Shown here one piece after another: positions 4,612 to 44,788 of a stretch of 64,000 nt of DNA; position 1 is the stretch's first letter; every line of letters begins with the position of its first letter. Source of the stretch: Natrarchaeobaculum aegyptiacum (lineage in GTDB: Archaea > Halobacteriota > Halobacteria > Halobacteriales > Natrialbaceae); the NCBI RefSeq assembly GCF_002156705.1, contig NZ_CP019893.1:3286001-3350000 (forward strand), written 5' to 3'. The notes under the pieces are model-generated. The model searched no databases. It was given only the letters and a program-made list of their open reading frames with translations, and was not told the origin of the DNA. The position numbers and the translations under genes were made by a program.

Positions 4612-7302
4612 TCAGCCCGTGTTCTTCATCCCCGCAGCGATTCCCTTGACCGTCAGCCGGAGGGTGCGTTCCTCAACGTCGGTCCGATGGGTCTGACGGA
4701 GCAGATACGTCTGCAACAGGTTCAACGGGTCGACGTACGGGTTCCGACGCTCGAGATTCTCGCCGAGCCAGTCACGGGTGTGTAGCTGGTCGCGCTGGCC
4801 GATCTCGGTGACCAGTTCGACTGCGCGTTCGTACTCCTCGGACAGGCGTGGGAAGAACTTCTCACGACGCTGTTCGTCGGCGAGGTCGGCGTAGTGGGCA
4901 GCGATCTCGAGTTCGGTCCGCGAGAGCGAGAGGGCCGCGTTGTCGAGCGTCGACCGGAAGAACGGCCACTCGTCGTACATCTCCTGAAGCGTAGCCACGG
5001 AGCCTCCATCGTCGAGGTAGGCGTCGATCCCCGAGGCGACGGCGTACCAGCCGGGGAGGATACACCGCGACTGGGTCCAGGAGAACACCCACGGGATCGC
5101 CCGCAGGTCCTCGACGGTTCGCTCGCCGCTTCGAGAGGCCGGTCGGGAGCCGAGGTTCAGGTCCTCGATCACCGTGATCGGCGTCGCCTCCTCGAAGTAG
5201 CGGACGAAGCCGTCGCTCTCGAGCAGGTCGCGGTACTCCCGGCGGGCGGCGTCGGCCATCGTCTCCATGGCCTCGATCCACTCGTCCTCGACGGCCTCTT
5301 CGGGCTGGTCGAGCGCGTACAGTCGCGCCCGTAGCTGGGCGTTGAGCATCTGCTCGATGTTGCGCTCGGCGATCCGCGGGTTGCCGTACTTCTCGGCGAT
5401 GGCCTCGCCCTGTTCAGTGAACTTCACCTGTCCCGTCACAGTGGAGTTCGGCAGCGCGAGCAGGGCCTCGCTCATCGGTCCACCGCCGCGAGAGATCGAG
5501 CCGCCACGGCCGTGGAACAGCCGCATGGTGACGTCGTACTCGTCACAGATCTCGCCGAGGCGGCGCTGGTTCCTGTACAGCGACCAGTTGGCCGCCAGAA
5601 ACCCATTCTCCTTGTTCGAGTCGGAGTAGCCGAGCATGATCTCCTGGGTCTGGCCACGTGCGGCGAGTGCCTGCGCGTAGGCCTCGTTCTCGAACAGCGT
5701 CCCCATGATGCGCTTGGCCCCCGAGAGTGCAGACTCGGTCTCGAGCAGCGGCACCACGTCCAGCCCGCAGTGTTCGGGCAGGGAAACGACGCCGGCCTGA
5801 TCGGCCAGGAAGAGCACCTCGAGGACGTGACTCGGCTCTTCAGTCATCGAGATGCAGTAGGTGTCGATCGCCTCGACGCCGTACTCGGCCTGCCAGTCGG
5901 CCAGCCGGTCGAACAGCTCGAGAACGCGAGCCGCGTCGTCCGACAGATCACCGACCTGCGCGAGATCGATCACCGACTCGTCCTGGCAAATTGCATCCGT
6001 GAGGAACTCGACGCGCTCGTCCTCGCTCAGGCGCTTGTACTCGATGCCCTCGCGCTCGAGCGCCTCGGCGATGGCGTCGGTGTGTTTCTGGCGGTGATCC
6101 CGGAGGTCGAGGCTGGCGAGTGAGAAACCGAACGTCGTGACCTGCCGGCGAAGCGGATCGACGTGGGCCTCGACGACGCTCGCTGCACCGTTATCACGGA
6201 GGCTCCTCGCGATGAGTTCGAGGTCCGCCCGCAGTTCGGCAGCGTCGTCGTAGCCCCCGGGGCGGACGTCACCGACGCGGTCGAGCCGTTCGCGCATCAG
6301 TTTGAGTTTCTGGCGGTAGGGTTCGTCCGGATACCGCTCGGTCGCCGTCCGCGCACTTCCCGGCAGACGCTCGAGGTCCGCTTCGAGTGAGGCCTCGAGT
6401 TCCGGCCCGACGTCGACCCGGTGGCCGTCCTGGCTCACCACGCCGGAGAGGCGCTTGAGTTCGTCCCGGTAGTTCTCGAGAACGACCTCGCGCTGGCGCG
6501 CGAGGGTGGTCTCGGTCACCTCGGGCGTGACGAAGGGGTTCCCGTCGCGGTCGCTACCGGCCCACGAACGGAACTCGAACAGTTTGGGGATCTCGAGGTC
6601 GGCGTCGATCGCCTCGTCGATGGCGTCGGCCAGTTCGTCGTAGACCTCTCCGACGACGTCGAACAGCGTGTTCTCGAGGTACCACTGGACGTTTCGGGCC
6701 TCGTCTTCGGGTTCGGGCTGTCGGTTCCGTACCTGTGGCGTTTGCCAGAGACTCGTCACTTCCGCATCGACGTCGCGCCAGACCTGCGATCCTTCTTTCT
6801 CGGTCAACAGCCGCTCGTCGAGCGTCTCGAGTGCCGTGGAGATCTCCCTGAGCTTCGATTTGACGGTCTTTCGACGTGCCTCCGTCGGGTGGGCGGTGAA
6901 CGTCGGCTCGATGAGGACGTCGTCGAGGATCTGCTGGACGGCCTCGACGTCTGTCTCGGCGAGTTCGTCCGCAACGGCCTCGAGACTGTTCTCGAGGGTT
7001 CCCTCGTGTGACTCGGTGCGAATCGTCCGCACGCGTTCGCGCTCTTCGGCGAGGTTGATCAACTCGAAGTAGGTCGTGAACGCGCGAGCGACGATTCGCT
7101 GTTTGTGTGGTGACAGGTTCCGAAGTTCCGTCACCAGCGGCTCACGGGATTCGAGGTTCCCTGATCGGTAGTCGATGGCGGACCGCCGACATGATTCGAC
7201 GGTGTCAAATGCATCGCGTGAGGTCTGGTCCTCGATGACGTCCCCGAGAAGTGCCCCGAGTTCGCGGACGTCCTGTCGGACCTCCCTGTTGTGCAATTGC
7301 AT
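4612..7302 (-). CDS. ppc: Phosphoenolpyruvate carboxylase
   Basis: A full bacterial-type PEP carboxylase of 896 residues that adds bicarbonate to PEP to give oxaloacetate, refilling the citric acid cycle. Catalytic His138 lies in TFTAHPTEARRK, the same number as in the E. coli enzyme. Also present are FRSWAGSDRDGNPFVTP, the glycine-rich loop FHGRGGSISRGGGP, and the usual C-terminus ending in GMKNTG. The open frame runs upstream to 7491, but the ATG at 7302 matches the family N-terminus and has a T-rich TATA-like box about 26 nt before it. Codon use is like that of its neighbours and nothing is missing. Confidence 0.97.
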   Translation of the reverse strand: MQLHNREVRQDVRELGALLGDVIEDQTSRDAFDTVESCRRSAIDYRSGNLESREPLVTELRNLSPHKQRIVARAFTTYFELINLAEERERVRTIRTESHEGTLENSLEAVADELAETDVEAVQQILDDVLIEPTFTAHPTEARRKTVKSKLREISTALETLDERLLTEKEGSQVWRDVDAEVTSLWQTPQVRNRQPEPEDEARNVQWYLENTLFDVVGEVYDELADAIDEAIDADLEIPKLFEFRSWAGSDRDGNPFVTPEVTETTLARQREVVLENYRDELKRLSGVVSQDGHRVDVGPELEASLEADLERLPGSARTATERYPDEPYRQKLKLMRERLDRVGDVRPGGYDDAAELRADLELIARSLRDNGAASVVEAHVDPLRRQVTTFGFSLASLDLRDHRQKHTDAIAEALEREGIEYKRLSEDERVEFLTDAICQDESVIDLAQVGDLSDDAARVLELFDRLADWQAEYGVEAIDTYCISMTEEPSHVLEVLFLADQAGVVSLPEHCGLDVVPLLETESALSGAKRIMGTLFENEAYAQALAARGQTQEIMLGYSDSNKENGFLAANWSLYRNQRRLGEICDEYDVTMRLFHGRGGSISRGGGPMSEALLALPNSTVTGQVKFTEQGEAIAEKYGNPRIAERNIEQMLNAQLRARLYALDQPEEAVEDEWIEAMETMADAARREYRDLLESDGFVRYFEEATPITVIEDLNLGSRPASRSGERTVEDLRAIPWVFSWTQSRCILPGWYAVASGIDAYLDDGGSVATLQEMYDEWPFFRSTLDNAALSLSRTELEIAAHYADLADEQRREKFFPRLSEEYERAVELVTEIGQRDQLHTRDWLGENLERRNPYVDPLNLLQTYLLRQTHRTDVEERTLRLTVKGIAAGMKNTG

Positions 7303-33715: not shown

Positions 33716-33796
33716 GGGGTCGGGGTGGACAGTCGTGACTCAGAACGGATCGTCCGTCAGAAGCTTTGCGAGGGAAGATCCCGCGTAGGACCTTCT

Positions 33797-33853
33797 GCAT
33801 CTCTGTTCGGCACGTATGCGCCCCACTGCGATGCGAGGGGAGGGAATCGAACC
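33797..33853. repeat. Direct repeat copy 1: tRNA-Leu 3' end plus trailer
   Basis: A 57-bp copy, with one mismatch (33823 against 33919), of 33893-33949, shifted by 96 bp. It contains the last 24 or so bases of tRNA-Leu (T-arm and acceptor strand) and 33 bases of the downstream flank, but not the rest of the tRNA. Confidence 0.85.
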
Positions 33854-33891
33854 ACGGTCGCAGGAAACCTGCTCCCTGATTCGATTCCTCC
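33839..33891 (-). repeat. Long imperfect hairpin made with T-arm sequence
   Basis: On the minus strand GGAGGAATCGAATC pairs with GGTTCGATTCCCTCC (14 pairs with one bulged C and one G-T pair). Inside is a smaller hairpin GCAGG-TTT-CCTGC. One outer arm is the T-arm copy in repeat 1; the other is an inverted, near-identical copy of it. Confidence 0.7.
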
Positions 33892-33892
33892 G

Positions 33893-33949
33893 GCATCTCT
33901 GTTCGGCACGTATGCGCCTCACTGCGATGCGAGGGGAGGGAATCGAACC
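33893..33949. repeat. Direct repeat copy 2, overlapping the intact tRNA-Leu
   Basis: Partner of 33797-33853. Its right part is the 3' end of the working tRNA-Leu gene and its left part the 3' flank. Confidence 0.85.
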
Positions 33950-34010
33950 CACGAACTCCTACGAGAGCGGATCTTGAGTCCGCCGCCGTTGGCCGCTTGG
34001 CTACCCTCGC
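33928..34010 (-). tRNA. tRNA-Leu (anticodon CAA)
   Basis: Read on the minus strand, the gene starts GCGAGGGTAGCC and ends CCCTCGC followed by discriminator A. The anticodon loop is CTCAAGA on a five-pair stem (GCGGA/TCCGC), so the anticodon is CAA. A long variable arm fits the class II tRNA-Leu, and the total is 83 bases without intron or encoded CCA. The T-stem has one T-T mismatch. The 3' end is repeated 96 bp downstream. A TATA-like TATTCAAG is about 30 nt upstream. Confidence 0.93.
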
Positions 34011-34484
34011 ACGCACCTCGTCGTTGGTACCGTTCGCTTGAATACTCTGCGATTTGCTCGGAACGACGCCGGTCGTCCGTGTGACGCCTGAAATACTATC
34101 CCGATTAATAGTCCTCTCGGGCAAACGTACAGTGTACGGAGATTGAAGGTTACACTTCGGACGCAGTGACGGTCGTTTCTGTTCATCGATGGCCGCATAC
34201 CCACTTCTCGTGAAAACCTCTCTCACACAACGTTTATTGGTCGCTCCGTCGTTCCCTCTGGTATGTTCGCTGTGAGTTCCAGCGCAGCCCGAATCGGTGG
34301 CCAGCCGCGCGTCGACGCCGCCTCGCTCTTTACATTCGGGAATTTTAAACGCGCACTCACAGCGTCTGGGGCATCCTGGACGAATACGACGGCTCGAGCC
34401 TGCAATCGGGTTCGCCCGTCGTTACGTCGGTATCGTCCACCTGTTTCCCACCAGGCCCCGGGTCACGGCCATCGCCCCTGAGCG
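34011..34484. other. Intergenic region with a TATA-like box
   Basis: About 470 bp between tRNA-Leu and the membrane protein gene. TTTATTGG at 34233-34240 is 27 nt before an ATG at 34263 that opens a 72-residue basic frame ending at 34481, just before the next gene. The frame is Arg-rich and unlike haloarchaeal proteins, so the box more likely serves the gene at 34485 with a long leader, or the frame is a leader peptide. Confidence 0.35.
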
Positions 34485-44564: not shown

Positions 44565-44788
44565 GAACGGGTATCCGTCTTCTGGACAACTAACTCCAGC
44601 GGTGTTTGGCTATCGTGTCAGAAACTCATGGACGGGAATTCGAACAGGTGCGAGACGTTCCGGGGATGCGGCCTCACTCCGTTCGGTCGCCCGTGCTCGC
44701 GACTCGAATGGGCAACTTCCGTTTCTCGCCTCCGAGTTCCGGTGGCTCACGCAGCTACGCGGCGCTCGTCGGTTCGAACTCGAAAAAG

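Follow-up and report, generated by a model that had tools for sequence, protein, structure and literature searches.

The locus downstream of tRNA-Leu(CAA)

The gene for tRNA-Leu(CAA) lies on the minus strand of the window, i.e., of the whole stretch of 64,000 nucleotides that was analysed, where ARAGORN places it at 33926-34011 and Rfam at 33928-34010. Behind its 3' end, the last part of the tRNA and its trailer occur a second time, and an inverted copy of part of the T-arm and a structured core lie between the two occurrences. The parts, in the order in which they follow on the tRNA strand, and a related unit elsewhere in the window are:

33928-34010, minus strand: tRNA-Leu(CAA) gene (ARAGORN, Rfam), with nucleotides 53-73 of the tRNA at 33928-33948
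33893-33927, minus strand: trailer 1, with the hairpin GGCGC-ATAC-GTGCC at the position called hp1
33879-33892, minus strand: T', an inverted copy of T-loop and T-stem, with nucleotides 53-64 of the tRNA copy as its partner
33853-33878, minus strand: type-1 core CAGGGAG-CAGGTTTCCTG-CGACCGTG, in full CAGGGAGCAGGTTTCCTGCGACCGTG
33832-33852, minus strand: exact copy of tRNA nucleotides 53-73, i.e., T-loop, 3' strand of the T-stem, 3' strand of the acceptor stem and N73
33797-33831, minus strand: trailer 2, with one mismatch to trailer 1
33767-33796, minus strand: terminal hairpin GAAGGTCC..GGATCTTC, followed by an acceptor-strand copy CCCTCGCA
33832-33927, minus strand: the 96-bp unit, composed of trailer 1, T', core and copy, missing in G003 of the same genus
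44624-44706, minus strand: second unit in the window, after tRNA-Ser(GGA), with a class-2 core (44646-44706) and a degraded copy (44624-44645, 16/22 match)

The duplication of the tRNA-Leu 3' end and trailer, which the initial annotation had described at a spacing of 96 bp, is real, and the direct repeat (33791-33853 and 33887-33949) measures 63 bp at 95% identity. The motif GCGAGGG, taken there as a possible further remnant, is present at 33768-33774 and belongs to the terminal hairpin with its acceptor-strand copy. Many relatives have a similar hairpin, again followed by CCCTCGCA, downstream of their tRNA-Leu(CAA), and some of them, like G003, have no unit.

Folding and covariation

The segment from T' through the core to the copy folds on the minus strand, which is the strand of the tRNA, with -31.3 kcal/mol as RNA (z -4.96) and with -17.3 as DNA (z -4.84), while the folds of the plus strand are weaker (z -2.57 and -2.56). 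In this fold the inverted T-arm copy (33879-33892) is joined to the repeat around a GCAGG/CCTGC hairpin, which bears out the earlier description of a stem with a second hairpin inside it. Type-1 cores are characterised by GG/CC pairs, tandem G-A positions, a bulged G and a variable, self-complementary tip.

The limits of the tRNA copy are sharp. Its identity to the tRNA is 0.16-0.37 at most positions before G53 and 0.87-0.99 from there through N73, after which it falls to 0.57 and then declines further. Only nucleotides 53-64 of the copy pair with T'; from nucleotide 66 on, pairing does not rise above background. An inverted copy of full length, including the acceptor strand, was considered and rejected, as pairing is at background beyond nucleotide 65.

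Within the paired region, T' covaries with the T-arm of its cognate tRNA at nucleotides 57, 59, 62, 63 and 64, with z values of 6.2-9.9 relative to shuffled pairings. When 46 complete hairpins are aligned, 93.5% of the pair cells hold standard pairs, compared with 84.2% after shuffling; cells changed on both sides number 90, compared with 32 in the shuffles, and 11 pairs have changed on both sides. A search for T' sequences moved from another tRNA gave no clean foreign match, and this origin of T' was rejected. The stem of the trailer 1 hairpin is maintained in relatives in spite of differing sequences.

A U-G wobble opposite G53 is retained in 79% of the hairpins. This wobble, and the G-A/A-G positions in the stem on the sense strand, identify the strand that folds as that of the tRNA, and a covariance model of the hairpin scores 73.6 bits in sense and 22.5 bits on the other strand of the window. 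As far as it goes, the strand evidence is what would be expected of RNA and of single-stranded DNA alike.

In unrelated genomes, the copied T-loop repeatedly has one base inserted or changed at one and the same position (for instance GTTCAACATCC for GTTCAAATCC); loci of this kind are L100, L120, L153, L168, L169, L206 and L216.

A family of units behind haloarchaeal tRNA genes

When the segment from T' to the copy is searched against its own genome, matches appear at many other tRNA loci. The pattern CAGKGAG-N-CGACCRYGGTT occurs 18 times in this genome, compared with no occurrence of a reversed control, and is present in 39 of 61 relatives searched; the matches listed in a scan of named genomes span the haloarchaea and include loci in Natrialba, Natrinema, Natronococcus, Halorubrum, Haloferax, Haloarcula and others. 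Among the matches listed for the set of units defined by the pattern only, 111 of 117 follow a tRNA of the same strand at a distance of no more than 450 bp. Antisense and upstream positions have none of the 117, and the distance from tRNA end to core has a median of 59 nt. Judged by its sequence, the feature behind tRNA-Leu(CAA) is a member of a family and not a single occurrence.

The type-1 pattern captures one part of this family. In a survey that took in the 3' flank of practically every tRNA in this genome and in one of the same genus, 45 of 92 flanks had a copy of nucleotides 53-73 (at least 16/21 matches, within 300 bp), while shuffled tRNA ends gave 1/460 and two other tRNA segments gave 3/92 each. 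The same unit architecture, built each time from the adjacent tRNA, is located behind about half of the tRNA genes in the two genomes. Copies tend to be found at the same tRNAs in both (16 in both, 14 in neither, 10 discordant; Fisher p = 0.0016), and the cores at shared tRNAs usually differ between them. Cores of at least two further structured classes occur alongside type-1, one AGACGAGTCGCAG..GACCGTCTCGGCG-like and one of the form CCGAGGTTCTGCGC..GCGCAGGTTCTCGG. Trailers that have a unit carry the hp1 motif in 17 of 45 cases, and those that have none carry it in 0 of 44.

Copies are also present in several tRNA flanks from other haloarchaeal families, and the hairpin covariance model has matches in 35 of 41 haloarchaeal genomes. 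It has none in about 196 other genomes of the phylum, the kinship of most of which is inferred from list order, and a small sample of tRNA flanks outside the haloarchaea gave a copy in 0 of 31. Rfam 15 at its gathering score returns tRNA matches only in the window and at seven unit loci, and searches of open-access papers, with archaeal tRNA repeats, MITEs, casposons, integrons, SNJ2 and tRNA trailers as subjects, gave no description of the unit. The family is, apparently, restricted to haloarchaea and undescribed.

Conservation in place and turnover

Consider the orthologous tRNA-Leu(CAA) locus in five genomes (G000, G002, G008, G019 and G010), a few hand-picked orthologues whose identities are compared directly. 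Identity in this comparison ranges from 88 to 100% for the core (88-100%), from 95 to 100% for the copy and from 33 to 75% for the two spacers. Within G000, G002, G008 and G019 the core identity is 96-100%, and all four have the tip GG-TT[TC]-CC. The initial annotation had proposed that an integrated element be looked for at this tRNA in relatives; at the orthologous site in several genera there is the conserved unit and no element.

The two trailers evolve in another way. They differ by one mismatch within G000 and by none within G002, and their identity between these two genomes, which belong to one genus and share the unit, is about 69%. From this follows that the trailers undergo concerted evolution. 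In G003, of the same genus, the site is cleanly empty, with the trailer directly abutting the terminal hairpin. Concerted trailer evolution, tandem expansion and clean loss are what would be expected if the units arose by neutral local rearrangement, in which tRNA genes and their surroundings undergo template switching or are duplicated in tandem, and gene conversion keeps the repeats identical. Such rearrangement can, however, yield neither the same CAGGGAG...CGACCGTG core at many tRNAs in many genera nor a T' that covaries with its cognate. As an origin of the units it is therefore disfavoured and we regard it as improbable, while the copies, once present, may be maintained by such means.

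Units are also found in tandem arrays, with three copies 102 bp apart in one case and four strong matches 111 bp apart in G273. In two genera, arrays that include hp1 occur where there is no tRNA and sit instead at a protein-gene end that contains the T-loop-like sequence GGTTCGAACCGG. Tips from one genome resemble each other slightly more than tips from different genomes do (p = 0.05), and the same holds for the loops (p = 0.0035), which suggests spread; in some copies the acceptor strands have decayed. Tandem growth, empty sites, a site outside tRNA genes and differing cores at the same tRNA together imply that, as DNA, the unit has the behaviour of a repeat as well. The protein-gene ends with two or three units in tandem are those in L053 (295-530), where a thiolase gene lies beside them, and in L108 (minus strand, about 6804-6935).

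A serious rival to any explanation in terms of RNA is a site-specific mini mobile element aimed at the T-loop, which corresponds to the tiny non-autonomous element suggested in the initial annotation. A cassette-like segment of trailer hairpin, T' and core would insert at the T-loop motif GTTCRA, produce a 21-bp direct duplication of nucleotides 53-73 and restore the tRNA, and the folded strand from T' through the core to the T-arm copy would be the substrate of a recombinase acting in trans. The sharp duplication, fixed at 21 nt, fits this scheme, as do the arrays, the unit with hp1 at the non-tRNA gene end, the empty site in G003, the patchy occurrence, the differing cores at one tRNA, and the likeness of tips within genomes. 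Yet T' always matches the local tRNA, and conservation in place of both core and copy extends over several genera. Furthermore, no gene-bearing version was found, and the integrases that adjoin some units use short att sequences of their own. The exact unit pattern has no match in 2.9 million viral contigs, and blastn finds none to the unit in plasmids. On balance, a mini element is a possibility to be taken seriously but rather doubtful.

A further viral comparison gave only weak partial matches, in terminase genes of Streptomyces phages, and of two pattern matches to the integrase in viral contigs neither was confirmed as a relative. With no informative matches in viral contigs or plasmids, a viral or plasmid origin was dropped.

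Integrative elements at unit-bearing tRNAs

The 3' ends of tRNA genes are known integration sites (PMC8371274), and the initial annotation had read the duplication as a possible scar of an excised element. More generally, the units could be attR scars left by proviruses or integrative elements, and in seven genomes one integrase family (Phage_integrase) is indeed found within about 600 bp of a unit or core. At four such loci (L400, L401, L403 and L404) the integrase element is situated between the tRNA side and the unit, and its own att repeat consists of about 13-16 nt of the acceptor end. The junction runs from this short acceptor end into a unit of hp1, T', core and copy, from which follows that the units predate the integrase elements. 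Since these elements insert between tRNA and unit with short att repeats of their own, much shorter than the unit copy, and since units lie behind many different tRNAs, are far more numerous and uniform than expected of scars and have no exact-pattern match in viral contigs, excision scars are a very unlikely explanation. The core as attP of the neighbouring integrase family was rejected as well, as the element-side junctions have no core.

The attL and attR sites of tRNA-integrating elements such as SNJ2 and pNOB8 share with the unit a tRNA 3' end repeated directly downstream. The unit differs from them by a repeat fixed at nucleotides 53-73, a spacing of 70-150 bp without genes, a covarying inverted arm and a conserved core, and the repeats of real elements beside units are shorter.

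Comparison with other small repeats

In terms of tRNA-derived parts, the unit resembles t-elements, which also occur in haloarchaea and also have a hairpin ahead of a 3' acceptor strand that derives from a tRNA; their processing has been described in H. volcanii (PMC4946936). In contrast to a t-element, the unit lies behind a complete tRNA and copies that same tRNA, it has no acceptor 5' strand of its own, its T-loop is paired by T', and a structured core is inserted. The half-tRNA of complete acceptor stem and T-arm that defines a t-element is absent here, as the inverted arm pairs with nucleotides 53-64 only.

Arrays of integron cassettes resemble the units in their position beside a fixed site, in a strand-specific folded hairpin with variable tip and in a G/TT boundary, while the units carry no cassette genes. 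The boxes of attC have the consensus RYYYAAC/GTTRRRY. Relative to this, the unit has GTTCRA, with C at position 4, at the R' position, and its R'' position mostly ends in AAT. As this consensus is unmatched and no integron integrase exceeds the cut-off of TIGR02249 in 41 genomes, an integron was rejected.

MITEs, PATEs and other small mobile repeats of haloarchaea are, like the unit, short and gene-less and have hairpins. PATEs and SMRs are described as making no target duplication (PMC3119063), whereas the unit duplicates the 21 nt of nucleotides 53-73 and has an inverted arm that matches its target. Casposon insertions at tRNA genes have, in common with the unit, a T-loop motif as target (TCAAATC in A. 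boonei). Their target duplication is 14-15 bp and located after the T-loop (PMC6614799), whereas that of the unit is 21 nt, starts at G53 and includes the T-loop; inspection by eye revealed no terminal inverted repeats in the unit.

A proposed structured RNA in the pre-tRNA trailer

The explanation that we favour, with a probability of roughly 0.45, is that the unit is a cis-acting structured RNA in the trailer of the pre-tRNA, belonging to a haloarchaea-specific family and borne by a repeat subject to duplication and turnover. It is favoured because units are placed in sense only, fold on the sense strand, covary with the cognate T-arm and are conserved in place. Among the three readings in the initial annotation, structured RNA is accordingly the one with the best support: pairing, strand and conservation speak for it, and transcription is presumed.

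If the unit is co-transcribed with its upstream tRNA, T' would pair with the copied T-loop and T-stem to form a long hairpin, behind which the duplicate 3' acceptor strand would be free. Hairpin and duplicate strand could then act in cis on 3' maturation of the pre-tRNA. The 5' acceptor strand might find in them an alternative partner or a decoy, the copied N73 might serve as a second tRNase Z-type end, and a small RNA of about 96 nt might be released; all three roles are put forward as proposals. At the DNA level, the unit expands by tandem duplication, is homogenised by recombination with its own tRNA and can be cleanly lost.

Some observations count against a trailer RNA. About half of the tRNAs have no unit, which means that it is not generally needed, and two genomes of one genus have wholly different cores behind one and the same tRNA. 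The protein-gene-end arrays in two genera weigh in the same direction, since tRNA maturation is irrelevant there, as do the decayed acceptor strands of some copies and the likeness of tips within genomes.

A more far-reaching, and in our judgement unlikely, interpretation combines both aspects in a class-wide haloarchaeal system. Units with a local copy of nucleotides 53-73 and a complementary guide arm would be installed behind tRNAs, much as in an integron-like array without genes, and would act in the pre-tRNA to control or safeguard formation of its 3' end.

If the reading of the units given here is right, a sequence-specific, covarying structure lies in the trailers of a substantial fraction of haloarchaeal tRNA genes, which amounts to about half in the two genomes fully examined. 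It would represent either a new layer of control of tRNA maturation or a new self-templated repeat aimed at the T-loop, and haloarchaea that can be cultured would allow either idea to be tested. The unit matters, too, for the role of tRNA genes as integration sites, since integrative elements insert between tRNA and unit. The downstream copy would then, if this is right, provide a route by which recombination between the copies expels an integrated element and restores the tRNA.

Two further loci are of note. In L237, tRNA-Gly(CCC) is followed by near-complete tRNA 3' parts in tandem, in a different arrangement. In L146 from Haloterrigena salina (minus orientation, about 4.7-7.9 kb), tRNA-Val(CAC) and the units are separated by about 3.1 kb, which carries a P-loop ATPase-like gene.
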